Source of the DNA: Halodesulfovibrio aestuarii DSM 17919 = ATCC 29578
Lineage (GTDB): Bacteria; Desulfobacterota; Desulfovibrionia; Desulfovibrionales; Desulfovibrionaceae
Length of the DNA stretch: 32,796 nt
Assembly (NCBI RefSeq): GCF_000384815.1
Contig: NZ_ARQF01000014.1
Location: 1 to 32,796, forward strand
Direction of reading: 5' to 3'
Shown here: in pieces, positions 10,722 through 32,796 of the stretch
Layout of the letters: every line of letters starts with the position of its first letter
Position numbering within the stretch: position 1 is the stretch's first letter
Position numbers and translations under genes: made by a program
The notes under the pieces: model-generated
The model's input: only the letters and a program-made list of their open reading frames with translations
What the model was told of the DNA's origin: nothing
Databases searched by the model: none

Positions 10722-10738
10722 AGTCTTACACACCCCCC

Positions 10739-10803
10739 AAAAGGTCGGCTGCTCTGAGCACCAGAGCAACGCTCTAAGTGCTGCAGAAGCAAGCCGGCCT
10801 TTT
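10739..10803 (+). terminator. Branched terminator-like structure between M and L
   Basis: Outer stem AAAAGGTCGGCT with AGCCGGCCTTTT (one G-T pair), enclosing a smaller hairpin made of GCTCTG / CAGAGC. The T tract is four bases. Probably an attenuator or processing site inside the late operon. Confidence 0.6.
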
Positions 10804-10816
10804 CTCAAGGATCCTT

Positions 10817-12475: not shown

Positions 12476-12483
12476 GAGGCCGT

Positions 12484-13602: not shown

Positions 13603-13617
13603 TAATGGATAACGACT

Positions 13618-14680: not shown

Positions 14681-14681
14681 T

Positions 14682-15101: not shown

Positions 15102-15104
15102 GAA

Positions 15105-15338: not shown

Positions 15339-15339
15339 T

Positions 15340-15600: not shown

Positions 15601-15788
15601 AACGGCGGGTTGCATCCATAGAAGGGCAAGCGCTGTCACAAATGATGGTCTTTTCCCATAAGTGGTTCCCCGGCCAAAAAGCTACAGAGAAGACCATGGC
15701 AGAGGCAATGTTTTTAGAAAACGACTACTGGAAGAAAATGGAAATTGCGATAGCAAACGGTTCTTCCAGGGCATTTTGCGGACGGTAG
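15591..15788 (+). CDS. -1 frameshift extension of the tail chaperone (E+E' / GT-type)
   Basis: The heptamer G GGA AAG (15591-15597) lies in the zero frame of the chaperone, one codon before its TAG stop, and fits X XXY YYZ; it is the same heptamer as in the lambda G-GT shift. Slipping back one base gives GGG AAA GTA GAA and opens a frame of 63 codons up to TAG 15786. The extension starts VERRVASIEGQALSQMMVFS and includes FLENDYWKKMEIAIANGSS, without its own ribosome binding site. The fusion would be 149 residues. It ends three bases before the tape measure start. This matches E+E' in P2 and G-GT in lambda, where a minority of ribosomes make the longer product. Confidence 0.88.
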   Translation, partial: GKVERRVASIEGQALSQMMVFSHKWFPGQKATEKTMAEAMFLENDYWKKMEIAIANGSSRAFCGR

Positions 15789-15791
15789 CAC

Positions 15792-17747
15792 ATGAATTTA
15801 GAAAAACTACTTTTCCAAGTAGACATGCTGGACAACGTGACCGGCCCTGTCGGGAAGATGCAAAAAAAGCTTGATGGCTTTGCTACCTATGCACGCAAGT
15901 CCTTTCTTCAGGTTGGCACCGGGGCCGCTGGCATGTGGGCTGCCACAGAAGGTATTACTGCCATGCTCGGCCCTGCCCGAGAAATGAACAAAGCCCTGCA
16001 GGAAGTTTCTTCGCTTGATGTGAGCGACTCCGCATTAAAGCAGCTCAACAACCAGGCGCTTAAATACTCTATTAAATATGGCGAGTCTGCAGACGCCTTT
16101 GCTTCATCCGCATACGATATTCAATCATCCATTGAAGGTCTTGACGGGAAGGAGCTGGCGGCCTTCACCAACTCTTCCAACGTACTGGCCAAAGCAACGA
16201 AAGCCGACGCTGCAACCATTACCAACTATACTGGCACCATGTTTGGCATCTTTAAAAACGAAGCCAATGCAATGGGCAAAGCCAAATGGGTAGAGCAGCT
16301 CACCGGCCAGACCGCCACCGCGGTACAGATGTTCAAGACAAACGGTATGGAAATGTCTGGCGCGTTCACTTCGCTTGGCGCGTCTGCAACTTCTGCCGGC
16401 ATTAACGCAGCTGAACAGATGGCCGTACTTGGCTCGCTGCAATCTACTATGTCCGGCAGTGAAGCCGGTACAAAGTACAAGGCGTTTCTTTCCGGCGTTG
16501 GCGGCGCACAGGACAAGCTCGGCCTCAAGTTTACAGACTCCAACGGCAAAATGCTTGGCATGATGGATATTCTTACCAAACTCAAAGGCAAGTTTGGGAA
16601 TACTCTCGATGTTGCCGAGTCCGACGCATTGAAAAAGGCATTCGGATCCGATGAAGCGGTAGGTATGATTAAACTGCTTATGGCCGACACCGATGGGCTT
16701 GGCCAATCCATTAAAAAACTCGGCAATGTTCAAGGCATGAGCAAAGCAGAACAGATGGCCTCTAAAATGGTGGATCCTTTCGACCGGCTTTCTGCCGGTG
16801 GCCGCGCCTTAACAACCGTTCTCGGTCAATCACTGCTGCCCGTAATCAATCCCCTGGTTAACATGATGGCCGACGCAACCGTCACTATGACGGAATGGGC
16901 CGACAAGTACCCTAACCTTACCCGCTGGATAGGCTACGGGGCTACTGCCATTCTCGGCTTTACCGGTATACTTGGAGCTGCTGCAGCTGCATCCGGCGTC
17001 ATGCGTATTGCCACCTTCGGGCTTGGTGTAGTGTTCGGCCCACTGAATAACGCACTTCAATGGAGTAAGGCTGTATGGGCGGCATATTCCGGATCTCAGT
17101 GGTTAGCAAATGCTGCGTTGTGGGGATTCCCTGCAACGTGGTTAGTTGCTGCGCTTGTTGGTGTTGGTGTTGCTGTCGGTGCTGTTATTTACTGGTGGGA
17201 TGATTTAACCGCTGTATTTTCTGACATACAGTGGTGGGATACTCTTTGCTCTGCTTTTGATTTCATAAAACTATTCTCTCCGATCGGATTGATTGTCACC
17301 TTCTTCGAAGATGGGTTTGACGGGGTACTTAATCTTGCCAGCAGCTGGTGGGATGCCCTTGGTTCTATCTTCGATTTTGTAAAAATGTTTACCCCTATCG
17401 GGTTGATCTTCACCTTTTTTACTGAAGGGTTTGACGGGGTGTTCACTTCCATTCTGGCTTGGTTTGACACACTCGGCTCCGGTGTTGATTGGTTCATCGA
17501 CAAACTAAACATGCTGCCCGGGGTAAACCTGTCCACCTCCTCGGAAACAACCGTTGTCAGTACCTCGCCTTCTCTTGAAGCAGGACGCCGGCTGAATGTT
17601 CCTCCCGGTGGTGCTGCTCAAAGTATCAGCAATTCCATGACCCAAAACCAGAGCAGCTCACAGAGTATCGGCAAGGTTGTTATCCAAACCGAAGGCAAAC
17701 AAGACGCGCAGAGCCTACGCGAACAACTCTTATTGGCCGGTGCTTAA
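15792..17747 (+). CDS. T: Tail tape measure protein (P2 gpT analogue)
   Basis: A 651-residue protein whose length sets the length of the tail. The N-terminus is amphipathic (LEKLLFQVDMLDNVTGPVGKMQKKL). Residues about 60-330 match the phage minor tail/TP901 core domain (ALQEVSSLDVSDSALKQL, SAYDIQSSIEGLDGKE, the long Ala/Gly/Ser-rich helical part). Then come hydrophobic segments (about 378-412 and 440-470) that may insert in the host membrane during injection. Residues about 481-570 hold three tandem 38-residue units beginning WWDTL, WWDAL and WFDTL. The C-terminus is polar. It is shorter than P2 gpT (815). The next gene starts with a TAATG overlap. Confidence 0.92.
   Translation: MNLEKLLFQVDMLDNVTGPVGKMQKKLDGFATYARKSFLQVGTGAAGMWAATEGITAMLGPAREMNKALQEVSSLDVSDSALKQLNNQALKYSIKYGESADAFASSAYDIQSSIEGLDGKELAAFTNSSNVLAKATKADAATITNYTGTMFGIFKNEANAMGKAKWVEQLTGQTATAVQMFKTNGMEMSGAFTSLGASATSAGINAAEQMAVLGSLQSTMSGSEAGTKYKAFLSGVGGAQDKLGLKFTDSNGKMLGMMDILTKLKGKFGNTLDVAESDALKKAFGSDEAVGMIKLLMADTDGLGQSIKKLGNVQGMSKAEQMASKMVDPFDRLSAGGRALTTVLGQSLLPVINPLVNMMADATVTMTEWADKYPNLTRWIGYGATAILGFTGILGAAAAASGVMRIATFGLGVVFGPLNNALQWSKAVWAAYSGSQWLANAALWGFPATWLVAALVGVGVAVGAVIYWWDDLTAVFSDIQWWDTLCSAFDFIKLFSPIGLIVTFFEDGFDGVLNLASSWWDALGSIFDFVKMFTPIGLIFTFFTEGFDGVFTSILAWFDTLGSGVDWFIDKLNMLPGVNLSTSSETTVVSTSPSLEAGRRLNVPPGGAAQSISNSMTQNQSSSQSIGKVVIQTEGKQDAQSLREQLLLAGA
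17232..17536 (+). repeat. 114-bp tandem repeat inside the tape measure gene
   Basis: Units start at 17232, 17346 and 17460 (period exactly 114 bp, 38 residues): WWDTLCSAFDFIKLFSPIGL, WWDALGSIFDFVKMFTPIGL and a shorter, diverged WFDTLGSGVDWF. Each full unit ends with a GFDGV motif. Recent duplication or loss of a unit would change tail length by a fixed step. Confidence 0.85.
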
Positions 17748-18064
17748 TGCCAAAATACACCGACCTACTTATAACAAATAACGACTTTACACTTGATGCC
17801 GGGGGCAACCCGGCGCTTGTGCATGACGTCGATTGTATTGCCCAGGACATTGAACACATGATTCGAGAAACAGGGTTACTTGTTGAGCTGATAGCCAACA
17901 GGGATGCACGAAAGAAAGCGGCCAACCTGAACAAGATCATAATGGCCGTGGAAGAAGACGAACGCATAAAGCCCGGCACCGTGTACATAGAAGAACCTTC
18001 CCTCGGCACGTTCTATTTGGTCGCGGAGACGCTCGAATTTGGTGAGCTGCAGAGGACATTGTAG
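17747..18064 (+). CDS. Baseplate/tail protein of DUF2590 type
   Basis: A 105-residue protein starting MPKYTDLLITNNDFTLDAGG, followed by VDCIAQDIEHMIRETGLLVELIANRD and IIMAVEEDERIKPGTVYIEE. It belongs to the DUF2590 group found in this place in HP1-like phages and resembles gpW/gp25-type baseplate wedge proteins in its layout: a short strand, an IAQDI helix and a charged helix. It likely forms part of the wedge between tape measure and gpJ. It overlaps the tape measure stop and ends nine bases before the J gene. Confidence 0.78.
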   Translation: MPKYTDLLITNNDFTLDAGGNPALVHDVDCIAQDIEHMIRETGLLVELIANRDARKKAANLNKIIMAVEEDERIKPGTVYIEEPSLGTFYLVAETLEFGELQRTL

Positions 18065-18073
18065 GAGATATAA

Positions 18074-19255
18074 ATGCCAGCTGAATCTGAAAAAATCTTT
18101 ACCCAGATGCTTGAAGACGCAGACATCCCTGTTACCGAACAAGCCATGAAAGACCGCTGGAATGCTCTTAATAAAGAACAAGGCGGCCTTATTCAGAATG
18201 ACAGTAAATGGAGTCCGTTCTGGCGTCTTATTACCTCTATCATCACCACGCCATGCAGTGACCTTGTTAAGCTTCTTATTAAGCATGCGCTGCCCAACAT
18301 CTTTCTAAAATACGCCACAAGTACATGGCTTGATTTGTACGCCTGGGGAGTAGATGTGGAGCGCAAAAAAAGCGTTACCGCACAAGGTGTTTTACTTGTG
18401 ACTAGAACTGTTTCTACGGGTGAGCTGCTGTTCCCTGCAGGTACTATTATCGAAACTGCGCCTATCAACGGCTATGTATACCGCGTTACGACCACTGCAG
18501 ACACAATTATCCCGGACGGAGAACTTACAGGAAAAATTCCGGTACTAGCTGAGAAAGAAGGCAACGCCTACAACCTTGGCCCGGGCTACTATTCCGTTCT
18601 GCCAACACCAATAGCCGGCGTTGCTTCAGTAAAAAATGAAGCTGACTGGCTAAGTGTTGCCGGCGCGGATCAGGAACAAGACGAGCCGCTGCGCCTTCGT
18701 TGTCGCAATCAGTTTTCCGCGGTGGGCCAGTACCACCACGACGCGGCATATAGGGCAGACATAACCGGCTTTGCCGGCATTCGTCCGGACTATCTTTTTT
18801 TTGAACATGGAGCGCCTCGAGGCCCTGGCAGTGCAAACTGTTATGTGATGATCGAAAGCGGCATACCGTCGCAATCCTTTGTAGATCAAATCAACAGCCA
18901 TGTACGCGATACAGGCAACCACGGCCACGGTGACGACATGCTTTGTTTTCCAATGCCTACGCAAGATATTGCGCTTGGCGTTACTGTTCATCCACAGCCA
19001 CACCTTACGGACGAAAAAGAAGAGGCCTTACGGGGCGGGGTAGAGAATATGATCCGGTGTGCGTTCCGTGAAAATGAAACATACACCGTGACCAAAGTAT
19101 TTCCCCAGAGCCGTTTTTCCTTCTCCAAACTTTCCGACGAGCTGCACGGAAAATTTACGGATTTAAAATCCGTTGAGTTCGACATGCAGGACATTACCAG
19201 CGCAACCACACTGCCAAAGTTAAGCGCACTTACCGTAACGCTCGGAGCTGAATAA
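18074..19255 (+). CDS. J: Baseplate wedge protein J
   Basis: A 393-residue baseplate J-type protein, a core wedge component that links the hub to the fibre attachment side. It carries the family patterns: WLDLYAWGVDVERKKSVTAQGVLL, FPAGTIIETAPINGYVYRVT, AEKEGNAYNLGPGYYSVL, then EPLRLRCRNQFSAVGQYHHDAAYRADITGFAGI and the C-terminal ALTVTLGAE. It is longer than P2 gpJ (302), as is usual for the HP1 group. Start ATG 18074 follows AGGAGA. The stop overlaps the start of the gpI gene (TAATG). Confidence 0.92.
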   Translation: MPAESEKIFTQMLEDADIPVTEQAMKDRWNALNKEQGGLIQNDSKWSPFWRLITSIITTPCSDLVKLLIKHALPNIFLKYATSTWLDLYAWGVDVERKKSVTAQGVLLVTRTVSTGELLFPAGTIIETAPINGYVYRVTTTADTIIPDGELTGKIPVLAEKEGNAYNLGPGYYSVLPTPIAGVASVKNEADWLSVAGADQEQDEPLRLRCRNQFSAVGQYHHDAAYRADITGFAGIRPDYLFFEHGAPRGPGSANCYVMIESGIPSQSFVDQINSHVRDTGNHGHGDDMLCFPMPTQDIALGVTVHPQPHLTDEKEEALRGGVENMIRCAFRENETYTVTKVFPQSRFSFSKLSDELHGKFTDLKSVEFDMQDITSATTLPKLSALTVTLGAE

Positions 19256-19836
19256 TGGCCGCGGTAAAACTTCCATTCTGGTTTTCAGAAGAACAAGTAC
19301 GCATTCTTACGCAAAGCGCGGCCAAGTGGTTCGAGCTGCTGACAAGTTGGGCCAGCTGGCCACTCCTTCAGATGAATCCGGAAACATGCGTTGAAACCGT
19401 GCTTAACCTCATAGCCTGGCAGCGCGACATTGACCGCTTTAAAGACGAACCACTGTCCTTGTTCCGGAAGCGAGTAAAATATGCATACATCAACGCCAAA
19501 GACGCGGGAAGCGTAGCCGGTTTTAAACGCATATTTATGCGGCTCGATATTGGCTATGTGGAAATTGAAGAACGCATGGACGGGATTGATTGGGACATTG
19601 TTGATATCCAGTTATCCGACTCCCAACTGGCCGAAAACCAGAAACTTTTAAAAGTGCTCATTCAGCATTACGGGCGAACATGCCGGCGGTATCGCTGGAA
19701 AATTATTACACCGGTTCCGTTCTATGTACGCGCCGGCGAATTCAACAATACATACGGGTACGATCACGCAGCAGTACCACCATGCACTATCGGTATCCGT
19801 GTTGAAGAATACTCTAACGACTTTGTAACGCTTTAA
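19255..19836 (+). CDS. I: Baseplate protein I (P2 gpI family)
   Basis: A 193-residue wedge protein that connects the tail fibre to the baseplate. Family features are the N-terminal helical part, CVETVLNLIAWQRDIDRFKDEPLSLFRKRVKYAYINAKDAGSVAG and FKRIFMRLDIGYVEIEERMDGIDWDIVDIQL, with a C-terminal strand-rich end (CTIGIRVEEYSNDFVTL). P2 gpI is 176 residues. It sits between J and the fibre gene, as in P2. Confidence 0.86.
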   Translation: MAAVKLPFWFSEEQVRILTQSAAKWFELLTSWASWPLLQMNPETCVETVLNLIAWQRDIDRFKDEPLSLFRKRVKYAYINAKDAGSVAGFKRIFMRLDIGYVEIEERMDGIDWDIVDIQLSDSQLAENQKLLKVLIQHYGRTCRRYRWKIITPVPFYVRAGEFNNTYGYDHAAVPPCTIGIRVEEYSNDFVTL

Positions 19837-19849
19837 AGCAAGAGGACAT

Positions 19850-21751
19850 ATGGCAACAGCAATTACTTACGCAGGTGAAACGCTCATAGCTCAAAAGCAA
19901 GCAGCCGGTGCACCTCTCATTATTGAAAAATTTATCTTAGCTCTGGTTCCGGAGCTGGATCCTAATGCACCGGTTAACCGTGCAGACACAAGGCCGGACA
20001 ATGTCGTGCATGAGTACACTATTCCGGCCGAGTTTAAGAGCTTCTTAAATCCTAATCAGGTTGTGTATTCCATGTTGTTGGGTTCCAACCTTGGAAACTT
20101 CACCTTTAACTGGATTGGCCTCGCTGCTGAAGACGGAACAATTGTTACCGTTACGTATCTTCCTGAAATGGAAAAACTCAAAACAGCAAACAACGTACAG
20201 GGGAACAACCTTACCCGTAACGTGCTGCTTGAGTTCTCCGGAGCACAGGACGCAACAGGCATCACTATTCCGGCTAAAACATGGCAGATTGATTTTACAG
20301 CACGCCTTGACAGTATTGACGACCGCATGCGTAAAACCTGCCGCGACATCTACGGCCGTCAATGTTTCATTAAAGACGCAGCGCTTATAAAAAACGAGTC
20401 TGATAGCTTCACCCTGCAAGCGGGGTTCGGGTACATAGAAGGGATCCGCGTTGACTTTTCCACTATGCCGGTAGCCCTTGGCAGCCTACCAAAAAAACTT
20501 TGGTTAGACGTTGCCCTGCAGCAGCAAGGAGCAGACAAGGTTCCAGCTGTACAAGTTCTTTCTGCTGCTCCGGCTGAAGACAAGGCCGACTACACGGACA
20601 GCGCCAACGACCCGCACTATTTGGTTGCAATTGCCGACATCAACGCAGCTGGCGTGGTGACGGATCTACGCAGAGTAGAACAGGTAGAAACCGACCTTGT
20701 AAAATATCTGCTTGAGAACGGCGGCAAGAAAGAAGTTACTGTCCACCTGAATGATGCCAACCCTCATGGCTTGCCACTTGAAGGCGGCGAGGAAGGGCAG
20801 GTGCTTATCAAACAGGCCGACGGGGGGATTGCATGGGGAACCGTTGCCGGTGTTCCAGTTGGTGAACTCTGCTTTTCTACAAACGGCGAAGCATTGCCCG
20901 GAACAGTTCCGGCCAACGTAAAACAAAAAGTACGCTGTACCCTTTTTCCGCAGCTTTTTGAATGGATGAAGGGCGGGACGTATCTTACAGATGAAGCAGC
21001 GTGGGACGCCGAAGCCGCAGCACAGGACGGCACATGCGGCAAGTACTGTTGGGATGGTGGGGAATACTTCATTCTGCCGTGTTTCACAAAGTACTTTGCG
21101 GCGGCTCATGGGGATAAAGCGGTTGGTGATTGGGCAGGGGATGCAATTCGGAATATTACAGGGCGCTGGGAACAGGCCGCAAGTGGACAGTCAACAGAAG
21201 GAACGTCGGCAGGCGCAATTAGAGCTCTTGGGTTGCAACGAGGTCAAGAAGCAGAAGGCTCGTCTGGTCCGTTCAACGGTTTTGATTTTGATGCTTCCCG
21301 CGAAGTCCCCACAGCCGAAGAGAACCGCCCAAAAACCGCCTACGTTCTGCCATGTATCAAAGCGTTTGATATAGCCATTAATGCCGCACAGATTGACATG
21401 CAAGCACTGGCGCAACAGGTGGCGGCTATTAATGGGAACAAGGTTGATCGTTCCGAGTGGGTGGAACTGGTGCCGGGTAAGTCATACAAACGGCCTGACG
21501 GGATTATTGAACAAATAGGGTCTATCTCATATTTGAGCACAGGTGATGCTATTCTCCCAGAACATTTATTTCCTGTGGCGTTTACATCCATCCCTCATGT
21601 TTCTCTTAGTTTGGAAATTGATCATACGATCAATTACAATGCCAGCGTCTATAAAAAAAATATTACAAAAAATGGATTCACACCTCTAATCGACCGTGGT
21701 GCAACAGAGAGCGTTAACTTAGTAATTCATTGGAAAGCAACAGGGAAGTAG
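19850..21751 (+). CDS. H: Tail fibre protein (P2 gpH type, collar-fibre N-terminus)
   Basis: A 633-residue receptor-binding fibre. Residues 1-160 are the phage tail-collar fibre domain that attaches to the baseplate (AITYAGETLIAQKQAAGAPL, FNWIGLAAEDGTIVTVTYLP, LLEFSGAQDATGITIPAKTWQIDFTARLD). A short middle part has the HLNDANPHGLP motif common in fibres (about 304-314). Then comes a tail-collar segment (VGELCFSTNGEALPGTVPAN ... YFILPCFTKYF), and a beta-rich C-terminal tip (GSISYLSTGDAILPEHLFPVAFTSIPHVSLSL ... NGFTPLIDRGATESVNLVIHWKATG) like the gp53-type C-terminal domains. The last 90 codons are richer in A/T than the rest, hinting at an exchanged receptor-binding tip. Confidence 0.9.
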   Translation: MATAITYAGETLIAQKQAAGAPLIIEKFILALVPELDPNAPVNRADTRPDNVVHEYTIPAEFKSFLNPNQVVYSMLLGSNLGNFTFNWIGLAAEDGTIVTVTYLPEMEKLKTANNVQGNNLTRNVLLEFSGAQDATGITIPAKTWQIDFTARLDSIDDRMRKTCRDIYGRQCFIKDAALIKNESDSFTLQAGFGYIEGIRVDFSTMPVALGSLPKKLWLDVALQQQGADKVPAVQVLSAAPAEDKADYTDSANDPHYLVAIADINAAGVVTDLRRVEQVETDLVKYLLENGGKKEVTVHLNDANPHGLPLEGGEEGQVLIKQADGGIAWGTVAGVPVGELCFSTNGEALPGTVPANVKQKVRCTLFPQLFEWMKGGTYLTDEAAWDAEAAAQDGTCGKYCWDGGEYFILPCFTKYFAAAHGDKAVGDWAGDAIRNITGRWEQAASGQSTEGTSAGAIRALGLQRGQEAEGSSGPFNGFDFDASREVPTAEENRPKTAYVLPCIKAFDIAINAAQIDMQALAQQVAAINGNKVDRSEWVELVPGKSYKRPDGIIEQIGSISYLSTGDAILPEHLFPVAFTSIPHVSLSLEIDHTINYNASVYKKNITKNGFTPLIDRGATESVNLVIHWKATGK

Positions 21752-21760
21752 GAGGAATGT

Positions 21761-22183
21761 ATGAAAAGGTATTATTCACCATCAGAAAATTGTTTTCCTC
21801 AAGAGGGATCACTACCTGAAGATGCAATTTTAATCTCTGAGGATAATTTTTTACAGCTATTACGTGATCAAGAAAGGGGTATGGCTATCCAGCCAGACGA
21901 AAATGGCCACCCTGTTACAGTAACGCCACCTCCCGCACCAGAACCACCAGCACCAACAGAACAAGAATTAGCACAGCAACGCATTACCGAAATCACGCAG
22001 CAGCTCACAGCTAACGACCTTGCCTCTGTACGCCCTTTACGCGCTATTTTTGATGCACAGAAAAAAGGCGTTGAACCTAACGCGTTAGACGAAGCCCGAC
22101 TTACAGAATTGGAAGAACAGGCGCAAGCGCTACGAGCTGAATTGGTGACGCTTAACGAGCAACTTAACGCGGATGCCGGCTAA
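21761..22183 (+). CDS. Tail fibre assembly chaperone-like protein
   Basis: A 140-residue protein directly after the fibre gene. The N-terminus MKRYYSPSENCFPQEGSLPEDAILI and the following LLRDQERGMAIQPDENGHPV resemble the N-terminal domain of phage tail fibre assembly proteins, including a Pro-rich link (PPPAPEPPAPTEQ). The C-terminal half is a long helical part (ITEITQQLTANDLASVRPLRAI, LTELEEQAQALRAELVTLNEQL) that probably holds the fibre tip during trimerisation. The first 60 codons are A/T-rich like the fibre tip, so tip and chaperone may have been swapped together. It overlaps the next gene by one base. Confidence 0.8.
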   Translation: MKRYYSPSENCFPQEGSLPEDAILISEDNFLQLLRDQERGMAIQPDENGHPVTVTPPPAPEPPAPTEQELAQQRITEITQQLTANDLASVRPLRAIFDAQKKGVEPNALDEARLTELEEQAQALRAELVTLNEQLNADAG

Positions 22184-23079
22184 TGAGCTGGCAATCCCTC
22201 ACCTTTTCCCCGATCGGGGAAAACATACACGATGGATTGTTACCTGTGCTGTCCCAAGCTGCTGGCGAATTAGCCGGCAGTAAGGGGCGGCTTTCTTCCA
22301 TCTCCGGTGTTGTTCCCGTGGCGAAAAATCCACTTTCAAGCAGTGCAGCAACAGTTGCCGCGCTCCGGACGCAGCTCACAGACCTTGTTACCCGGTACGG
22401 ACAGTGCGTGTGTGTTCATCCATATTTACACACTGTAGGCCACAGACGTGGCGAATACAGCTATTTGACACCCAACGACGCACTCAAGCAGCTCGGCAAC
22501 AAGTTGATTGATGCAGAAGAAACATTCCCTTCCGGAAAATTGGGCGCGGTGGTTGTTGTGCTCTACGGCGCTACACACTCGGCATTTGTGGAGCAGCTTG
22601 AAACCTTCCTGCAGGTGTTCCCGGTAACGGAGCTGCAGAAGATACAACGCCGGGCCAACGGGCTAAGTTCACTTGAAACAGACAAGTTTTTCATTCCTGC
22701 AGCACGTAGTTGGCCGGAAGTCGTGCAACGGGATCCACGACAACACAACTCGCTACGTGACGTAGACACAACACTCGGCCAGCTGGTTGCAATAGGTGAA
22801 GGATACAACGAAACGACCGCACCAGAGGCACAGCTTGCGGCGCTTATCGACAAAAAGACAGCCACTATTCAGGCCGCGGAACAGGCATGGCAAAACCTGA
22901 CAACGAGTCTGGCCGGTGAAGCTGGCAAAGTTATGTACTGCGAAGGCAGCCCTGCAGGGTTACGTTCTGAATTATTCAAAAGCGGCTCACCTTCCAGCGT
23001 GTACAAATTGAGTGCGGCTATATCTTGGATAGCGCAGCCGGCACAGCTCACGGTTTTTAAAAAGGTATTTGGATTATGA
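22183..23079 (+). CDS. Unknown tail-operon protein (HP1-type position)
   Basis: A 298-residue protein between the fibre chaperone and the hub genes. No signal peptide or membrane helix. It begins MSWQSLTFSPIGENIHDGLL, with a helical first third, a central strand-helix part (LGAVVVVLYGATHSAFVEQLETFLQVFP) and a long helical stretch ending in AYKLSAAISW-type residues. I do not recognise a named family. HP1-like phages carry genes of this size in the same place, between fibre and baseplate hub. It overlaps both neighbours, so it is surely co-translated with the structural genes and is likely a virion or assembly component. Confidence 0.7.
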   Translation: MSWQSLTFSPIGENIHDGLLPVLSQAAGELAGSKGRLSSISGVVPVAKNPLSSSAATVAALRTQLTDLVTRYGQCVCVHPYLHTVGHRRGEYSYLTPNDALKQLGNKLIDAEETFPSGKLGAVVVVLYGATHSAFVEQLETFLQVFPVTELQKIQRRANGLSSLETDKFFIPAARSWPEVVQRDPRQHNSLRDVDTTLGQLVAIGEGYNETTAPEAQLAALIDKKTATIQAAEQAWQNLTTSLAGEAGKVMYCEGSPAGLRSELFKSGSPSSVYKLSAAISWIAQPAQLTVFKKVFGL

Positions 23080-23639
23080 CCCACTATCTACAGCTCAATG
23101 ACTTTAACGTACCAGGCTACAACCTCACCGTAACCGGCGACCTTGAAATTCGAACCGAGGATCTCTCCGGAGAAACAAGCAGCACCGCACGAGTTGATAA
23201 AGGCGTTAAGCCTAAAAAGCTGAATGTCTCTACAAATATCAAGTACCAGGATGCAAAGAAGCTGCGCGAACTTATCCGCGTCATAGAAGCCCGTGGCAAA
23301 AATGGTGAAGGCATGGTGTACAACATCACAAACCGCGACGCGAACGTTGCCGGCATTACGCAAGTACGTGTGACCGACCGTTTTAGCTGGAAGCCTATTA
23401 ATGGCCTTCAGGCGTGGTCTATAACATTTACGCTGCGTGAGTACTTGAGTGTTCCAGAGAAGGTAGAAAAGCGTGAGAAAAAAACGGATACAGTCGCACA
23501 GAAAAGCGAAGGAACACCGGTAGAGCCAAAGACGAAAACAGAAGACGCAGAAGCGCCACAACAAACCGCATCGGCCACACAAGACCCGCAGACGATGTTA
23601 GAAAACATCCTTCAGACAATCGATAAGGCGCTGGCATGA
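23076..23639 (+). CDS. Baseplate/tail hub-associated protein, tentative
   Basis: A 187-residue protein. The first 125 residues are a strand-rich domain (YLQLNDFNVPGYNLTVTGDLEIRTEDLSGETSSTARVDKG, then TNIKYQDAKKLRELIRVIEA and DRFSWKPINGLQAWSITFTLREYLSVPEKV) resembling small tail-tip adaptor domains. The final 55 residues are a low-complexity Lys/Glu/Thr/Ala tail with a last helix (DPQTMLENILQTIDKALA). It starts four bases before the previous stop (ATGA) and overlaps the gpD-like gene. The context suggests the HP1-type substitute for P2 U or X. The call rests mainly on context. Confidence 0.65.
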   Translation: MTHYLQLNDFNVPGYNLTVTGDLEIRTEDLSGETSSTARVDKGVKPKKLNVSTNIKYQDAKKLRELIRVIEARGKNGEGMVYNITNRDANVAGITQVRVTDRFSWKPINGLQAWSITFTLREYLSVPEKVEKREKKTDTVAQKSEGTPVEPKTKTEDAEAPQQTASATQDPQTMLENILQTIDKALA

Positions 23640-24334
23640 AGCTAAGAAAAACACTCACCATCGGCGGCAAAGCGGCCAAGCTGGTGGAAGAAGATATACG
23701 GCTTGATGTTGCCTCCCCCGGGCGCGCTTTTTTTCGCGTGAGAGCAACAGAAGCCCTCTCCGGTATCGTGCAATTCAGTCTTGGCTATTCCAGCCAGGAC
23801 AAAAACCAGCTCTTTTTTTCCGGATACATCGAAAGCAGCCATACGGTAGATACTGCCACGCAGAAGATCTTCTGCAGAGAAATGGCCGCGGCGCTCAACC
23901 TGCGCCTTCCTATCAGTTTACGCCACCCCACACTAAAAGACGTACTCGCGGCGTATAGCGACAAAACCGGCCTTGTGTTCACTGTTCCGGACGAACCCTA
24001 TGCAACGACGCGCATTCCCCATTTTCACACATTAGGGAGCGGCTATCACGGCATGGATCAACTCGGCGCGGTATTCGGTATAGAAAAATATTACTGGCAG
24101 CCACAGCCAGACGGTACGGTTTGGGTTGGTTCCTGGAACAATAGCAGATGGGCAACACGGCCCGTGAATATAGATGAAAAAGTTTTTACCGGTGTTACTG
24201 CTGCAGGGGCAAAAGTTCTGCCGGCTATTCCGGCGCTGCGTCCGGGTGTTTTTTTAAACGGCCAGTACTTAACCTCGTTACAACTCACAGGGCATGAAAT
24301 GGTGATTCAATGCGAGAACTCATTAAGCGCATAG
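23636..24334 (+). CDS. Baseplate hub protein (gpD/gp27-like)
   Basis: A 232-residue protein placed before the spike gene. It reads as a hub domain: strands at RVRATEALSGIVQFSLGYSSQDKNQLFFSGYIE, SSHTVDTATQKIFCREMAAALNLRLPISLRHPTLKDVLAAYSDKTGL, and YHGMDQLGAVFGIEKYYWQPQPDGTVWVGSW, the latter typical of late-control gpD-like hubs that read a codon-like string of strands and a short helix. It is shorter than P2 gpD (387). Its end overlaps the spike gene by 25 bases in another frame. It would form the trimer that joins tube and spike. Confidence 0.75.
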   Translation: MKLRKTLTIGGKAAKLVEEDIRLDVASPGRAFFRVRATEALSGIVQFSLGYSSQDKNQLFFSGYIESSHTVDTATQKIFCREMAAALNLRLPISLRHPTLKDVLAAYSDKTGLVFTVPDEPYATTRIPHFHTLGSGYHGMDQLGAVFGIEKYYWQPQPDGTVWVGSWNNSRWATRPVNIDEKVFTGVTAAGAKVLPAIPALRPGVFLNGQYLTSLQLTGHEMVIQCENSLSA

Positions 24335-25443
24335 TACTGCGTACTTTTCCAGAACTTACAGCGGGATTGCATCTTGATCGATATGCCAGAGTCTTGAAGG
24401 TTGCAGACGCTCCGGAAGACGGTGGAACTTGTGAGCGCTTCCGGCCGCGCTATGCCGTGGACGTGGAAATTCTTACACCTGAAGGCGAACCCGACAAAGC
24501 TTTCCCACGTTACGAGGCCGTGCCGCTTCCTGTTAATGGAGCCGGTAACGAGTCCGGCCAGTTCGCATATCCGGAACCGGGCGCAATGGTGGTAATTGGT
24601 TTTGCCTATGGTCGGGCCGATCATCCGATTATTCGCCAGGTCTATCCGCTTGGTTTATCTCTACCTGAGTTAACTAACGGCGAGTTACGTTGGCAACAGT
24701 CAGCTACAGTATACCAGAGTGCAGATAAACACGGGAACTGGACGCGCTCGAGCGAGGCCACCATAACCGACGAAAGCTTGCGGCAGGTTCGGCGCTGTGT
24801 GGAATCCATCGACAATATTTCCAGAGAATGGCGTACAGTTTTAGAAAACAGTACTGAAGAAGTCGGCGGCGTTAAAACTATTGAAGCACTCGGCTCGGTT
24901 CTCATCGGATCCGGCGGCCGCATGAATATATCTGCAGTAGACAGCATGAACTTAACAACGGCGCGAGATATGCGTCTTGTAGTAGCTGACAACATGCGCG
25001 TTGCTACCGGTGCCGATTATCAGGAAGTAATCAAGGGCAGCAGCTCTAGCAACATCACAGGCAACGAGGCCAGCACGGTCGGCGGCAATTTCACCCAGAG
25101 CGTAAGCAAAGACTACACGCAGACCATTAAAGGCAAGAGCAGCTCAACAGTCACAAAAGAAATTGCAATCAAAGCCGGCGGGACAATTACACACACTGCA
25201 GGTGGCGTCTTTACCATAGCAGCGCCAAAGATTGTAATCGGATCCGGTGCCGGCGGCGTCCATCTAATAGAAGAAACGCTCGGCGTCTGGGAAGAAGTAC
25301 GCGACGCGCTCAAAGTTCTAGCCGGGCATACACACTCACACCCACAAGGTGACACAGGCGCACCACTTCAAGGCGGCATCATTGCTGCACACTCAACGGC
25401 CGTGGGTGAACATCATGATCGGGTAGAATCTATTTCGGGATAA
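24310..25443 (+). CDS. V: Baseplate spike (gpV family)
   Basis: A 377-residue membrane-piercing spike. Residues about 20-115 form the OB-fold domain (RYARVLKVADAPEDGGTCERFRPRYAVDVEIL, AYPEPGAMVVIGFAYGRADHPII). Residues about 190-300 contain the repeated short strands of a triple-stranded beta-helix (GSVLIGSGGRMNISAVDSMNLTTARDMRLVV, SSSNITGNEASTVGGNFTQSVSKDYTQTIKG). The C-terminal tip carries AGHTHSHP and VGEHHDRVE, with HxH motifs like those that bind iron in P2-type spikes. It is longer than P2 gpV (211), with an extended beta-helix. It is the last gene of the late operon and is followed by the terminator at 25735. Confidence 0.9.
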   Translation: MRELIKRIVLRTFPELTAGLHLDRYARVLKVADAPEDGGTCERFRPRYAVDVEILTPEGEPDKAFPRYEAVPLPVNGAGNESGQFAYPEPGAMVVIGFAYGRADHPIIRQVYPLGLSLPELTNGELRWQQSATVYQSADKHGNWTRSSEATITDESLRQVRRCVESIDNISREWRTVLENSTEEVGGVKTIEALGSVLIGSGGRMNISAVDSMNLTTARDMRLVVADNMRVATGADYQEVIKGSSSSNITGNEASTVGGNFTQSVSKDYTQTIKGKSSSTVTKEIAIKAGGTITHTAGGVFTIAAPKIVIGSGAGGVHLIEETLGVWEEVRDALKVLAGHTHSHPQGDTGAPLQGGIIAAHSTAVGEHHDRVESISG

Positions 25444-26587: not shown

Positions 26588-26596
26588 ATTCCCCTC

Positions 26597-26735
26597 TTTG
26601 AAAAAATAGCACCTTTAATCAAAATTATTTTTGCTTTTCTGCTTACTTTTGAAAAAGTAGTACCTTTAATCAAAAAATATTACAAGAATATTTCCCATTT
26701 TGAAAAAATAGGTCTTTTAATCAAAAAATATTTTG
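26597..26735. repeat. Three direct repeats with 51-bp period
   Basis: Copies begin at 26597, 26647 and 26698, with the same G at 26600, 26651 and 26702 (period exactly 51). Each copy runs TTTTGAAAAA, then a variable AGNNC, then CTTTAATCAAAA, and is bounded by the inverted pair TTTTGA / TCAAAA. Extremely A/T-rich. They lie immediately upstream of the gene at 26207-26587 and about 760 bp beyond the repA stop, so they may be operators of that gene or an origin element. Confidence 0.8.
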
Positions 26736-26759
26736 TACTTTCAAAATAAAAGTGCGTCG

Positions 26760-27494
26760 GCTAATCGGATCCGGAATGCGACCAGCTGCACGGCCGATAT
26801 TCTTCCGGGTATAAATGTCTTCGGCCGAAGAGGTTTAAAAGTTCGCCGTATTTTGATTCTAAGAAAAAATTAGCGGGGTATGGGGCGGCAGCCCCTACTT
26901 TAGAAAGAAAAAAACTTTAGCGTTAGCACAGCGGCCTCGTAGGCCGCACGGAATTTGCTGTACAGCCTATGAGCTTGAAAAAAACTACTCACTTCTCATC
27001 AAGGAGAAATAACAGGTGTTGAGTTGGTAATACATGGTGCACAGCGGAACGCATGTTACGCTAGCACTGTACTGGGAAGAGTGTAGCTACTGCCGTTCAC
27101 TTGGTAAGAATTGAATCTATATGATAGAATGGCAGGAGCGAAGCGGTCACCTATGGCGGCTAGTCGCAGACGACGCCGCCGGTCCACTAACGTAAACCAG
27201 TTTAAGTCAGCAGGTTAGCTAGTCCGCTAGATATAAAAGCCCTCCATTCCCACCTAGTCCGCTATTTGGAAAAACACACTAGTCCGCCATTTAGGTGTTC
27301 CCGCCACATTCTCTACACGAAGTATGGTTCCAGGGGCGGGCTTACCTCTCGAAATAACACCCAATATCAACAGTGGTCTTTGCAAAATAGAAACCTGTAC
27401 TTAATAAAAAAGAGTGGCACTCTATTTTTAGATGTGCACACCCTTATGTTTTTGCTTATTTCTAAATTTTGGACGCAAGTGTAGTGGGGGTTGC
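26760..27494. other. 735-bp non-coding stretch downstream of repA with hairpins and repeats
   Basis: No gene supported. It holds hairpins GGGGC-GGCA-GCCCC (26882-26895) and GCGGCC-TCGTA-GGCCGC (26930-26946) and three CTAGTCCGC repeats (27219-27289). In IncFII plasmids the origin lies downstream of repA, beyond a cis-acting segment, so this is the most likely place for oriR. I find no perfect DnaA box in it. A 72-codon plus-strand frame at 27266 has no ribosome binding site and is antisense to likely repA read-through. Confidence 0.45.
27219..27289. repeat. Three CTAGTCCGC(T/C)A repeats
   Basis: Copies at 27219-27229, 27253-27263 and 27279-27289, same orientation, with spacings of 34 and 26 bp. 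A related inverted form (TTAGCGGAC) occurs at 31405-31413. Candidate replication-protein or host-factor binding sites just downstream of the repA gene. Confidence 0.6.
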
Positions 27495-28532
27495 CTAACC
27501 TTGCTGTGTCTTCAGCTCGGCAACTTTACTGATAACCATTTCTCTGTGCTCACGATTTCTCTTTGAGTCAAAGTTAGGAATCTCAGCTGCTAACAAAGCG
27601 TCGGCTCTACGGTATAATTCCGCTTCTATATTTTGCGGTTGTGGCTTCTTATCTTCGGCGTTCTGCTTAGGCTTAGCTTTCTTGCCTTTAAGCTTTTCGA
27701 CTTTGAGCTTAACCATCTCGGCTACAGTTACAGCGAGTTTTTTTGCTTCTTCTTTTATGCGACTAGAAGAGACCTTACGAGCTTTCTCTATGGTCTCTTC
27801 TGTAAAGCCTAACAGCTTGAAGAAGTCGACAGAGAATGTCCGCATGCTTGCGTAAAATTCGTATATTGCGCCTTTGATTGTTTTTCTACAGCAGTCGCCA
27901 TGATACGGCGTGTCCGTTGCTGACAGCTTTCGATACTGAGCTGCACTAGAGACCAGCTCCGATCTATACAGCAGAGTCAAAACAGCTTCACATCCACGTC
28001 TAGGAACGCGCGCAACTTCAGAAAGTCCCTTTACAGCCCAACCGCGCATACCGTTCGGGCTTGGCTTGCCAACTATCATAGTTGCAAGGCTAAGGCGGCG
28101 AAGCATTGAACTAAGCACCCTAACTACTTTTTCGCGCATCTGGCTACGCATGCGGCCTTTAGTGTAACCACAAATTGCATCGTTGAATTCTGGATAGCTA
28201 TCAGGGTTGATAGCCCAATTCTGTAAACGTTCAATGGCATCAACAATAATCGCCGGCATTTTGCCTTTACCCTTTTCTACAGGGTACGCGATTGCAAAAT
28301 CAAGATTATGCCTATCGTGGCCAAAGGAATTTACAGAGCGTGGACGTGGATCCGGATTGTCGGCGGGGGTAGGATGGTCTGTAGCGTCTGGTGGAATGCT
28401 TGCAACAATCTGCGAGAAAGGTGCTTGCACCTCTCCTGTATCTTCATCAAATGAAGGTTGCACTTCTCCTGTCTCTTCATCGTGGCCGAAGAGTTCAGAA
28501 TATTCTGATGCAGACGCAGAAACAGACGACAC
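27495..28532 (-). CDS. repA: IncFII-type replication initiator RepA
   Basis: A 345-residue protein resembling RepA of IncFII plasmids. Matching landmarks in order: NLDFAIAYPVE with KMPAIIVDAIERL (RepA: FDFAI and MPPVLRRRAID), the helical winged-helix-like part through VARVPRRGCEAVLTLLYRSELV (RepA: SITRATRALTFLSELGLI), FSVDFFKLLGFTEETIEKARK (RepA: FTSALFAALDVSEEAVAAAR), and the C-terminal AAEIPNFDSKRNREHREMVISKV. The family binds its origin, mostly in cis, and recruits host DnaA/DnaB. The N-terminal 70 residues are extra and include a tandem 11-residue repeat (DEETGEVQPSF, DEDTGEVQAPF). The start is GTG 28532, with GGAG seven bases upstream, and it shares its G with the TAG stop of the leader. 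This replaces the rolling-circle gpA of P2. Confidence 0.85.
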   Translation of the reverse strand: MSSVSASASEYSELFGHDEETGEVQPSFDEDTGEVQAPFSQIVASIPPDATDHPTPADNPDPRPRSVNSFGHDRHNLDFAIAYPVEKGKGKMPAIIVDAIERLQNWAINPDSYPEFNDAICGYTKGRMRSQMREKVVRVLSSMLRRLSLATMIVGKPSPNGMRGWAVKGLSEVARVPRRGCEAVLTLLYRSELVSSAAQYRKLSATDTPYHGDCCRKTIKGAIYEFYASMRTFSVDFFKLLGFTEETIEKARKVSSSRIKEEAKKLAVTVAEMVKLKVEKLKGKKAKPKQNAEDKKPQPQNIEAELYRRADALLAAEIPNFDSKRNREHREMVISKVAELKTQQG

Positions 28533-28615
28533 TAGAGCACTCCGTAGTTGAAGTTAAGCATCGCCTGTTTCGCAAAATGCAAAAGCGACGATACAGTGCT
28601 CTCAACCACGTTCAT
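28532..28615 (-). CDS. RepA leader peptide (Tap-like, 27 residues; longer form to 28786 possible)
   Basis: A frame ending in TAG whose G is the first base of the repA GTG start. From ATG 28615 it gives 27 residues (MNVVESTVSSLL ... FNYGVL), close to the 24-residue Tap leader of IncFII plasmids, whose translation is needed to open the repA ribosome site. The same frame is open up to ATG 28786 (84 residues), but those starts lack a Shine-Dalgarno; ATG 28615 has GAGG 12 bases upstream, also weak. The repA Shine-Dalgarno lies in a predicted stem with the leader codons (28534-28541 with 28595-28602). The role as a coupling leader is inferred from overlap and structure; sequence similarity to Tap is not evident. 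Confidence 0.6.
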   Translation of the reverse strand: MNVVESTVSSLLHFAKQAMLNFNYGVL

Positions 28616-28714
28616 GCGGTTTCGGTGCCTCGCGGCTTTCAGAGTCCACTTGTAAAAAGTATGGACTACTCCCGACACTATATCGTCGCTTTTTGCTGCT
28701 ATAATCGCAGCAAA
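28534..28714 (-). promoter_or_regulatory. repA leader RNA with alternative stems and kissing-type hairpin
   Basis: In the minus-strand RNA: stem B pairs AGAGCACT-type arms at 28534-28541 and 28595-28602 and covers part of the repA Shine-Dalgarno. Stem A pairs 28581-28598 with 28676-28693 (17 of 18 positions) and shares bases with stem B, so the two exclude each other. Stem A encloses a small hairpin at 28643-28667 and the leader start. A separate perfect 8-bp hairpin TTTGCTGC-loop-GCAGCAAA lies at 28692-28714; on the plus strand it is followed by TTTTGATTT and could end an antisense RNA of CopA type. I see no convincing antisense promoter. Confidence 0.6.
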
Positions 28715-28820
28715 TTTTGATTTCGATTGTGTGCTCTGTAAGGCTGAGCTAACCATGAACGTTTTGAGAGGAGTAAATTTAATCATGCGTAAGTCGCTTT
28801 GTCAATGGGTTATCAGAAGA

Positions 28821-28849: not shown

Positions 28850-29374
28850 CTACTGTTCGCGGTCAGTAGGGGTGCCGGACATTCTAGGCAAAGAGCTTGG
28901 AACTTCTTCTTTAGGAAGATCCACAGCAGCGTCTACAGCGTCAGCCATAGCAAGTAACTGTGCCGCTGCTTCTCGTGCTTCTTTACGAAAACGCACAGAC
29001 TCTTCCTGATCCACTACACCGTCGGCCATAATGTCATTATACGTACAAACCACATCGGCAAATTCTTTGCTGGATTTCATAAGCTCAAATTCCAGCTTGC
29101 AATCACTTCCAGCTGGAACCACATGTACACACAAATAGCCACGCTGCTCTGCAAGCCAATGCAGAGGTGTATCGTCGTTTGCTTCTTCCATTGCTGGCAG
29201 AACATTGTCGGCGTCAAAATGTGTGTAATCCACATTCGGGTTCAACTGCTGTGACAATGTAGTTGGGGTACGCCCTAGCCTTTTGGCCAGCTGATTCGTT
29301 TTTCCGCGACTGGTGAGCGTGTCGTGACATGCTTCAGTCAGGTTTGAATACTGAGAACTCTTCTTACCTGCCAT
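28850..29374 (-). CDS. Phage regulatory CII-family protein
   Basis: A 174-residue protein of the phage regulatory CII type found in P2/186/HP1-like phages. The N-terminal helix-turn-helix is LTEACHDTLTSRGKTNQLAKRLGRTPTTLSQQLNP (about residues 11-45). LPAMEEANDDTPLHWLAEQRGYLCVHV follows, then the helical end FADVVCTYNDIMADGVVDQEESVRFRKEAREAAAQLLAM. I chose ATG 29374, eight bases after GGAG, over the upstream ATG inside the operator region. In relatives the protein activates lysogenic transcription or early replication. It is divergent from the repressor across the operator cluster and sits in the copB position upstream of the repA leader, so it may set both the lysogeny decision and repA transcription. 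Confidence 0.82.
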   Translation of the reverse strand: MAGKKSSQYSNLTEACHDTLTSRGKTNQLAKRLGRTPTTLSQQLNPNVDYTHFDADNVLPAMEEANDDTPLHWLAEQRGYLCVHVVPAGSDCKLEFELMKSSKEFADVVCTYNDIMADGVVDQEESVRFRKEAREAAAQLLAMADAVDAAVDLPKEEVPSSLPRMSGTPTDREQ

Positions 29375-29396
29375 CTTATTGACTCCGATGTTTATT

Positions 29397-29438
29397 TTAT
29401 TTCTATAAAATTTTATTTCTATTACCATTCAGAAATAA
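29397..29438. promoter_or_regulatory. Operator cluster between CII-like gene and repressor
   Basis: Three copies of TTATTTCT: 29397-29404 and 29413-29420 in one direction, 29431-29438 inverted. The last two form the dyad TTTATTTCT-N10-AGAAATAAA. Spacing of the two direct copies is 16 bp. They cover the 5' leader of the CII-like gene, as expected for repressor binding at the early promoter. Confidence 0.7.
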
Positions 29439-29656
29439 ATTTCCGATATAATCCCTTACAACTTTTAACTAGCGTCAGACCATAGAACCGAAATAGTACA
29501 AGGATATCACCTAATTTATTGGCATACGGCTTAGTGACAACTAATGGCACTTTGCTTTTTTTGCTGCAAACCTTTCACTTTGTCAAGACTATGAAGATAA
29601 AACACTTACCCACACGAAAGCCTCTATGTCTTAAAAAAGACAAAAAAGAGGTAGAT

Positions 29657-30370
29657 ATGTCACTAATTAAACAAGCCAAATCTGTAACAACATATAACAA
29701 GATCTTAACGTATCTTATTGATGCTATGAATCTTCAAATTACCAAAGGGATATCAAAAGCTGAAATAGCAAGAAGACTTGGCGTTTCAGGAGCCACTATT
29801 ACCAGATGGTTAAACGGAGAGCGTAGCAATCTCAGACTCATCGACGCCATAAGAATGGCTAATTTCCTAGACCTCACTGACAAAGAATTAATGCAGCAAC
29901 TCTCTATTAATGAACTCAAAATATTAGCTATAGTAAGCCAACTAAAAGAAAGCTCTGGACAAGATCAAACAACTTATCTTGAACAAATAAAACAATACAC
30001 AGATGAGCATGGGAAATGGAAAGACGCAGTAAAGCTCTACACAACTCACCCATTCAGCATAAAGTGGCTTGAGTCGATATCCCCAACTCACTCTAATTGT
30101 TTCGTTTTAACAGTAAAAGACAACCTTATGTCTCCTACAATCAACAAAGGCGACGACGTCCTTGTCAATCCAGATCACGCAGACGTTAAACCTGGAGAAA
30201 TATTTTGTATCTCAATCAAGGGTGAAAAAATATTAGCTCGCCTTTTCCCTAAGAAAGAAAATATTGTCGCAATGTTCGATTCAGAAACAGCAGATGAACT
30301 CACAAGTAGCGCTTCTAATCCAGATTTTAAAATCGTCGGGCATGTTAGTTGGATGAACAGAAATCTTTAA
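29657..30370 (+). CDS. CI-like prophage repressor, S24 fold without catalytic dyad
   Basis: A 237-residue repressor. The helix-turn-helix is at 33-52 (SKAEIARRLGVSGATITRWL). The C-terminal domain (about 135-235) has the LexA/CI S24 pattern: LTVKDNLMSPTINKGDDVLVNPDHADVKPGEIFCI, GEKILARLF and FKIVGHVSWM. However, the usual DSM serine position is Leu157 and the lysine of the VKRL motif is Ala194, so self-cleavage is not expected. Induction would then need an antirepressor or another signal rather than RecA-driven cleavage, as in phage 186. ATG 29657 follows AGAGG by five bases; the open frame continues upstream to 29519, but without a ribosome site. It is divergent from the CII-like gene, with operators between. 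Confidence 0.88.
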   Translation: MSLIKQAKSVTTYNKILTYLIDAMNLQITKGISKAEIARRLGVSGATITRWLNGERSNLRLIDAIRMANFLDLTDKELMQQLSINELKILAIVSQLKESSGQDQTTYLEQIKQYTDEHGKWKDAVKLYTTHPFSIKWLESISPTHSNCFVLTVKDNLMSPTINKGDDVLVNPDHADVKPGEIFCISIKGEKILARLFPKKENIVAMFDSETADELTSSASNPDFKIVGHVSWMNRNL

Positions 30371-31466: not shown

Positions 31467-31488
31467 GACGTCATGACGTCATGACGTC
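31467..31488. repeat. Distal GACGTCAT array
   Basis: Three GACGTC cores at 31467, 31475 and 31483, in the same 8-bp register as the arrays around parA. On the circular map it lies about 5.3 kb from block 2 of parA. Likely a second binding site of the RHH partition protein. Confidence 0.78.
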
Positions 31489-32511: not shown

Positions 32512-32796
32512 ATGCGGAAAATTCTTGTAACGCTTCTTGCGCTCACCTTGCTAGCTCTTGCTGGATGTGGTGGAGACACTTCTGTTGACGATCCCAATGC
32601 AAAGCTTGTTAAGAGCACTATGAACAACCCGGGCCAGTTCCGGAACAGTAAAAGCGTTCCAGCTGCAAACGGTACATTCGTTATTGTTGATGGCTCCGCT
32701 TGTTACTGGATCAAGGAAGGGGCAATCTATGCAGTTAATGGCGTGGCTAAAAACTCTTCTCCGGGTATCGAATACGCGCCACCGTCCATTTCTTGG
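32512..32796 (+). CDS. Predicted lipoprotein, 5' part (continues at 1-545)
   Basis: ATG 32512 with GGAGG 12 bases upstream. The N-terminus MRKILVTLLALTLLALAGCG is a textbook lipoprotein signal: two basic residues, a hydrophobic core and the lipobox LAGC with Cys19 as the lipidated residue after cleavage. Residues after Cys19 are GGDTS, without Asp at +2, so outer-membrane sorting would be expected under the enterobacterial rule. The frame is still open at the window end and continues in frame at base 3 through the 95-bp overlap, giving 244 residues in all. It has its own transcript between terminators at 32410 and 566. Probably expressed from the prophage; function unknown. Confidence 0.88.
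   Translation, partial: MRKILVTLLALTLLALAGCGGDTSVDDPNAKLVKSTMNNPGQFRNSKSVPAANGTFVIVDGSACYWIKEGAIYAVNGVAKNSSPGIEYAPPSISW

Follow-up and report, generated by a model that had tools for sequence, protein, structure and literature searches.

The repA gene of Halodesulfovibrio aestuarii (27495..28532, minus strand) lies on the same DNA as the genes of a P2-type phage, which raises the question of how this phage is maintained in its host. The DNA analyzed, hereafter called the window, is an entire contig (C14; 32,796 bases) of a 3.55-Mb assembly in 21 contigs. Its first 95 bases are identical to its last 95 bases, and a 244-aa lipoprotein-like ORF (plus strand; 32512..32796, continuing across the contig ends into 1-545) stays open across the join. 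Because of the identical ends and the continuous ORF, the natural reading of the contig is a circle of 32,701 bases. An integrated prophage or a tandem repeat falsely closed by the assembler could also leave such ends, since the overlap has the length of the k-mer. We regard this artefact as extremely improbable: an overlap of just this kind is expected from a circular molecule, a gene reads through it, no integrase was found on the contig, and repA has one match in the host genome. Thus, predicted virion genes, RepA, ParA and HicAB appear to share one circle, as a previous reading of the sequence alone (the sequence-only reading) had stated. The G+C content of the window is 0.474, compared to 0.439 and 0.452 in two 20-kb stretches of the host's large contigs.

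The virion genes were assigned with Pfam and by comparison with Pseudomonas phage phi3 (Peduoviridae) and the same-genus prophage G009. Nine of ten window proteins scanned matched Pfam, the exception being a 143-aa ORF at the lysin position; the matched proteins were Ogr/Delta, portal, terminase, GPO scaffold, P2 capsid, small terminase, GPL, DUF2586 (at the sheath position) and a spike-like protein. The Peduoviridae (P2-type) capsid, scaffold and terminase set (PF05125, PF05929, PF05944 and PF05926) is present. Together with the portal and head-completion families, this bears out the P2-like virion gene set of the sequence-only reading. On the minus strand, the gene for the Ogr/Delta late-gene activator (4794..5063; PF04606, E = 2e-14) is followed by those for the portal protein (5091-6131) and the terminase large subunit (6124-7899). 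On the plus strand, 7995..14279 holds the scaffold, P2-type major capsid, terminase small subunit and head completion genes and, after them, genes labeled by their position in phi3 as tail terminator, neck, sheath, tube and DksA-like. The stretch 14249..25443 (plus strand) comprises the lysis region, tape measure, baseplate J and I, fibre, fibre assembly and a gpV-like spike. Virion and packaging genes are thus accompanied by putative lysis genes, which are assigned by their position. Twenty virion-block proteins match phi3 in the same order, with 31 to 57% identity.

The regulators point to a temperate phage. A CI-like repressor with helix-turn-helix and S24 peptidase domains is encoded at 29624..30370 (plus strand; Pfam; phrog_4, E = 5e-24), and a CII-like regulator at 28850..29428 (minus strand; PF06892, E = 3e-22; phrog_101), upstream of a leader ORF and repA on the same strand. 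The presence of CI and CII indicates lysogeny. HicB (1341-1745) and HicA (1789-2013; both on the minus strand) were identified by family matches. Their presence on the element agrees with the sequence-only reading, but they were rejected as a plasmid marker, since HicB relatives also occur in 5 of 11 prophage regions of the family and the annotation of phi3 includes HicB and HicA as a pair. A perfect 30-bp palindrome, CACAACCCTTACCAATTGGTAAGGGTTGTG, is located at 30656-30685 in the gap after CI. Two near-identical stem-loops (GCCCTGCCGGA.TAGGGCAGGGC) were seen at about 4183-4222 and 4745-4785, on either side of ORF 4237-4593; they are candidates for a terminator or a packaging-related element. 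A search for shared noncoding sequence or a cos site gave one 43-base match (E = 0.009) and nothing useful.

Plasmids derived from phage-plasmids have been described for P1-like elements (PMC10879196), and the circle could likewise be a plasmid that captured a decayed phage, or a domesticated prophage without an infectious cycle. This is very improbable, because all 26 proteins from ogr to gpV are encoded by intact ORFs and match G009 in the same order, and because CI, CII and Ogr are present.

What distinguishes the window from related prophages is the set of genes next to the virion block. The P2-type capsid protein matched 11 further genomes among 149 relatives, with 79 to 80% identity to three same-genus prophages. 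A gene with the integrase domain PF00589 lies within 25 kb of the capsid gene in 8 of these 11 family relatives; in the other three (G007, G032 and G046), the capsid gene is at most 16 kb from a contig end. In one relative, G001, P2-type genes that resemble a remnant lie next to other phage genes, and the integrase there may belong elsewhere. The host genome has nine PF00589 matches, none of them on C14. A primase was detected in 9 of the 11 relatives, four of which supplied the query, and its Toprim domain was confirmed in the two proteins scanned. This protein of about 900 residues is absent from the window. Conversely, relatives of RepA, ParA and CII were found in none of the 11 family prophage regions at E ≤ 1e-5.

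The sequence-only reading had reported no integrase and no gpA on the element, and neither was found on C14 with PF00589 and PF05840. Furthermore, in a tblastn search of the window (E ≤ 1e-3) with 16 proteins of the relatives, among them integrases, primases, gpA and initiators, only the Zymomonas ParA gave a match. The largest window ORF without a phage or plasmid assignment encodes 244 aa, which argues, by ORF size, against a protelomerase and a serine integrase. Accordingly, the window appears to lack a chromosomal integration module, as judged by the PF00589 model and, for serine integrases, by ORF size only. The gpA rolling-circle endonuclease, the replication trait of P2 sensu stricto, is also absent from the window. 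However, gpA was rejected as the gene that was lost: PF05840, which matches an Escherichia coli control, had no match in any of 12 genomes (the host and the 11 family relatives). The sequence-only reading had stated that P2-like phages normally replicate by rolling circle; gpA-driven rolling-circle replication does not seem to operate in the closest relatives. Since they have no gpA and 9 of the 11 have the protein of about 900 aa, the genes replaced in the window would be the integrase and the primase.

The wider set of 99 portal relatives (genomes and viral contigs, many of them incomplete and 43 of at least 15 kb) contained a primase in 27 cases, gpA in 27, a query-like integrase in 4 and HicB in 14, while RepA and ParA were found in none.

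The candidate for replacing the primase is RepA. Its ORF is open over 345 codons and begins with GTG. The 345-aa product had no match in Pfam and NCBIfam at E of 0.1 and only weak PHROG matches without function (best E, 2e-4). RepA homologs were found in six other genomes of the family (E, 3e-7 to 2e-10; 149 relatives searched). A profile of five homologs, which come from four genomes of the family, matched the window RepA with a probability of 97.7% (E = 2.4e-12) and repP-11A of the Pseudomonas aeruginosa plasmid RP1-1 with a probability of 99.9% (E = 3.6e-31). The latter is annotated as a replication initiation protein, and RP1-1 and its RepP-11A presumably carry the label IncP-11. With the homolog L050 as a query, 122 plasmid records matched, 96 of them from Pseudomonas. 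By homology, the window RepA can be assigned to the RepP-11A class of plasmid replication initiators, at 23 to 27% identity to the five family homologs that provide the link. Searched directly by tblastn, it matched no phage and gave two weak plasmid matches (E, 0.4 to 0.7), and RepA pattern scans of viral contigs and genome contigs retrieved no relative. AlphaFold2 predicted a winged-helix-like core (residues ~91-270) with a modest mean pLDDT of 60.5. The model had no match in the PDB at E ≤ 0.001 (best E, 0.14, to winged-helix regulators) and one match among viral folds (E = 1.7e-8), to an unnamed viral protein.

The replicon had been proposed to be of the IncFII type. A plasmid-class initiator was indeed found, as was an IncFII-like upstream anatomy (see below), but membership of RepA in the IncFII family was rejected. 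PF02387 (IncFII RepA) found nothing in the host genome at E ≤ 10, and the homolog profiles matched R100 RepA with a probability of 1.2 to 1.7%. One of five homologs scanned reached PF02387 at an E of 3.3e-4, below the cutoff; the RepP-11A class is perhaps remotely related to IncFII.

The region upstream of repA resembles a copy control region. A leader ORF of 84 aa (28532..28786, minus strand; 74 aa if it begins at the in-frame ATG at 28756) shares the last base of its stop codon with the start codon of repA (TAGTG), and we propose that the translation of the two is coupled. The leader RNA is predicted to form a long hairpin (inverted repeat I3; 28581..28693, minus strand; arms 28581-28598 and 28676-28693), which we propose as an antisense-RNA target. 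Compared to shuffled sequences, the leader fold had z scores of -5.87 and -6.71 in two computations, while eight control stretches of the window had a mean of -0.47 and a lowest value of -2.75. In the predicted fold, both the Shine-Dalgarno-like GGAG and the GTG at which repA begins are paired; when the upstream arm was blocked, the GTG was freed and the GGAG was still paired, in another helix. On the opposite strand, a terminator-like stem with a T run (28692..28714, plus strand) is a lead to the 3' end of an antisense RNA; terminator-like sites were no commoner in the window (5) than expected from shuffles (5.8). No known antisense RNA was recognized by Rfam, which over 26500-29500 gave four matches, all far below the gathering scores. 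A promoter-like TTGACA-18-TAAATT (28776..28805, minus strand) between CII and repA was recognized by consensus match.

As a yardstick for this arrangement, we used the six family repA homologs that are not located beside P2-type virion genes. L045, L046 and L053 are on contigs of at least 3 Mb, and L050, L047 and L049 are on contigs of 22 kb, 30 kb and 5.7 kb, respectively; L046 and L047 are near-identical. In five of the six, the end of an upstream ORF and the beginning of repA overlap by four bases. The leaders of four of these five are strongly structured (z, -4.5 to -9.2), while that of L045 is not (z, -1.4). L049 lacks the ORF overlap, yet its leader has a z score of -6.8. In the R100 repA control, tap (24 aa) overlaps and the leader z score is -3.2. 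With an overlapping leader ORF and a leader predicted to be strongly structured, the control region in the window is IncFII-like.

Downstream of repA, about 0.9 kb without an assigned gene (26588..27494) is a candidate CIS/oriV, and we suggest that the origin may be located there. It contains CTAGTCCGC direct repeats (27219-27285). Three AT-rich repeats (26586-26735; each of 48 nt, at a spacing of 51 bp) lie upstream of ORF 26207-26587 and are candidates for operators or a part of the origin. The only exact DnaA box in the window is inside the portal gene and not near repA.

The element also carries a predicted partition module. ParA (3255..4022, minus strand) was identified as a partition ATPase (PF13614, E = 9e-56; ParA-like phrog_164, E = 4e-62). 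Directly after parA, a 101-aa protein without a meaningful family match is encoded (2950..3255, minus strand). In a single-sequence AlphaFold2 model of this protein (mean pLDDT, 68.8), the arrangement of helices 56-70 and 80-94 is compatible with a ribbon-helix-helix fold, and no strand is present in the monomer. Thus, of the ParA/ribbon-helix-helix pair claimed before, ParA is firm, and the fold of its partner is suggested by a weak model. The motif GACGTC, chosen post hoc after it was seen as tandem repeats, occurs 15 times in the window, compared to a mean of 4.8 and a maximum of 12 in 200 dinucleotide shuffles. Six pairs of GACGTC are spaced at 8 bp, versus none in each of the 200 shuffles. 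Units of the motif, four of them at 8-bp spacing, are located upstream of parA (4051..4157; candidate centromere), two just past the gene of the small partner (2922..2945) and others inside its first codons (3213..3235). A distant cluster at 31467..31488 has three units at 8-bp spacing. The clusters are likely to be a centromere. A partition system is thus indicated by the ParA family, the weakly modeled partner and the repeats.

Overall, the region of about 12 kb from gpV (end, 25443) through the join to ogr (start, 4794) contains a RepP-11A-class initiator, ParA with its small partner and clustered 8-bp repeats, and it contains neither an integrase nor a primase. The window is therefore best read as a phage-plasmid, as first suggested by the sequence-only reading, in view of the circle, the virion block, the plasmid-class initiator and ParA, while integrase, gpA and primase were not found. 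Specifically, we consider it probable that a temperate P2-type (phi3-like) phage persists here as a circular plasmid, its early block having been exchanged for a plasmid-type replicon.

The distribution of the RepA class is relevant to this reading. Not all of its members are on free plasmids, since three of the six yardstick homologs are on contigs of at least 3 Mb, and a profile scan detected it in 31 viral contigs. Among them is L167 (IMGVR_UViG_3300045286_000150; 36.5 kb), a P2-type contig in which an integrase accompanies RepA of the window's class. Nine Aeromonas phage records also match the class, and one of these phages, Ahp2, has an annotated integrase. With the RepA class occurring in phages as well, the plasmid reading leans on ParA, the absence of an integrase and the plasmid-like leader. 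In about 40-kb viral contigs (L164, L179, L190 and L191), the RepA class follows ORFs that resemble tail genes by eye, and three of them (L179, L190 and L191) also gave a match to the ParA profile; these and other RepA-class viral loci are possibly further phage-plasmid groups. L197 (IMGVR_UViG_2887179270_000002), with a distant RepA homolog, appeared by eye to carry a block with lysozyme-like ORFs twice in tandem; its contig also holds the P2-type locus L121.

The integrase-bearing phages L167 and, by annotation, Ahp2 count against the plasmid reading, as do the structured leaders without an overlapping ORF in L191 (z, -6.92) and L179 (z, -4.25). These integrase-bearing phages would suit a RepA that is a lytic initiator in place of the primase, in a phage that lost its integrase; the circle would then be a carrier-state or freshly infecting genome and not a stable plasmid prophage. 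The leaders of the phage-context RepA members differ among themselves: L191 (z, -6.9), L179 (z, -4.3) and L164 (z, -3.8, compared to -4.4 in one of its control stretches) are structured, L190 is weakly structured (z, -2.0), and L167 is unstructured (z, 0.4). However, an overlapping leader ORF was present in the window and in 5 of 6 family homologs outside a P2 context, versus 1 of 5 in a phage context (L190), where start codons are uncertain. Moreover, ParA, its small partner and the clustered 8-bp repeats point to segregation, and CI and CII indicate lysogeny. We therefore judge a purely lytic role of RepA to be unlikely.

The origin of the phage-plasmid was addressed with a terminase tree (37 rows). 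The window fell into a 100/100 clade with the same-genus prophages G009 and G007 and the viral contigs L084 and L085. As L085 does not differ from G007, and L084 hardly differs from G009, the two contigs may represent these prophages. In this nearest clade, an integrase was seen near G009 and none near G007. Another prophage of the genus, G006, has a different position within the Desulfovibrionaceae group, and Zymomonas, Arsenophonus and L167 are placed outside it, Zymomonas and L167 on long branches. The position of the window in the 100/100 clade, among chromosomal prophages of its genus, suggests an integrative-phage ancestry of the element. The conversion would have proceeded from integrative phage to phage-plasmid, a direction that rests on the tree of one gene. 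Among 348 genomes of the order, the capsid was found in 24 and the RepA class in 20, the host genome being included in both counts. Both were located on one contig only in the host genome; G075 has both on different contigs, and its 22-kb RepA contig (C5) has no end overlap.

These data suggest the following model for a phage-plasmid. An integrative phage would have swapped its early block with integrase and primase for a plasmid-type replicon; replicons of this class are carried by other genomes of the family as well. RepA would open an origin just downstream of repA, and its translation would be coupled to that of the leader ORF, with the structured leader RNA as a possible antisense-RNA target that keeps the copy number low. 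ParA and its small partner would segregate the circle. CI would repress transcription through CII, the leader and RepA; upon loss of CI, early transcription through repA would raise replication, and Ogr would switch on the late genes. Plasmid maintenance, copy control and virion production, as well as the place of the origin, antisense control, segregation and the control of repA by CI, are deduced from gene content and arrangement. More tentatively, the whole early block (integrase and primase) may have been exchanged in one step for an antisense-RNA-type copy-controlled replicon, so that one initiator behind CII, under the control of CI, would serve both low-copy lysogenic maintenance and lytic amplification; we put this forward as a possibility that is somewhat doubtful.

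Several known systems share parts of this organization. Phage phi3 (Phitrevirus, Peduoviridae) has the same order of the virion block, but it has an integrase and a protein annotated as a DNA primase, both of which the window lacks. At the end of its map (L002 1071-2756), phi3 has an annotated reverse transcriptase gene. The RepP-11A of RP1-1 shares the initiator class of the window RepA at the low identity to the linking homologs given above. The IncFII replicon of R100 has, like the window, a leader ORF overlapping the repA start and a structured leader, but its RepA is not significantly similar to the window's, for which an antisense RNA is a candidate only. L167 resembles the window in its P2-type packaging and capsid genes and RepA class and differs from it by its integrase, no ParA in the 20.6 kb seen, no overlapping leader ORF and another branch in the tree.

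P2-type virions on plasmid records were also found. The Zymomonas mobilis plasmids pZM36 and pZZM401 combine, like the window, a P2-type virion with ParA on a circle of 36 to 37 kb, with no integrase in their (incomplete) gene table. For pZM36, 27 phage-related genes among 47 and about one copy per cell are reported (PMC5930841). Their candidate initiator, a 546-aa helix-turn-helix ORF, has no match in the window, their ParA is 28% identical to the window ParA, and they are distant in the terminase tree. The 33.6-kb circle paNv_UK11 of Arsenophonus nasoniae, in which circular prophage elements occur (PMC7157526), has a P2-type virion, an AAA family ATPase, a ribbon-helix-helix protein and a replication initiator. 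It keeps an annotated replication endonuclease and is distant from the window in the terminase tree; its initiator (PF10134, RPA) was rejected as a relative of the window RepA, to which it has no similarity. In the Arsenophonus phage-plasmid, a gene annotated as M85 family metallopeptidase (L006 4928-6460) adjoins the portal gene. Pantoea pESL4.2 (L003) is a P2-type circle listed as a plasmid, with an annotated integrase and replication endonuclease, and is perhaps an excised or carrier phage.

Among eight groups of phage-plasmids tabulated in a review that mentions further, more diverse categories, no P2-type group was seen (PMC11652158). Among the papers listed in literature searches on phage-plasmids, none described the present combination in its title or the start of its abstract, and none named Desulfovibrio together with phage-plasmids there. 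The unusual combination claimed by the sequence-only reading thus appears to be new as a phage-plasmid lineage and as a combination of virion and replicon, but not as a kind, since P2-type virions on plasmids with other replication genes were already known from Zymomonas and Arsenophonus. The closest comparison is with the Desulfovibrionaceae prophages, which have an integrase in 8 of 11 cases, a primase in 9 of 11 and a RepA or ParA relative in none, the opposite of the window. With the virion block in common and the early block different between the circle and the same-genus chromosomal prophages, it becomes directly testable whether an integrative phage acquired a plasmid-type replicon, and phage-plasmids would gain a host family, the Desulfovibrionaceae, and a replicon class.
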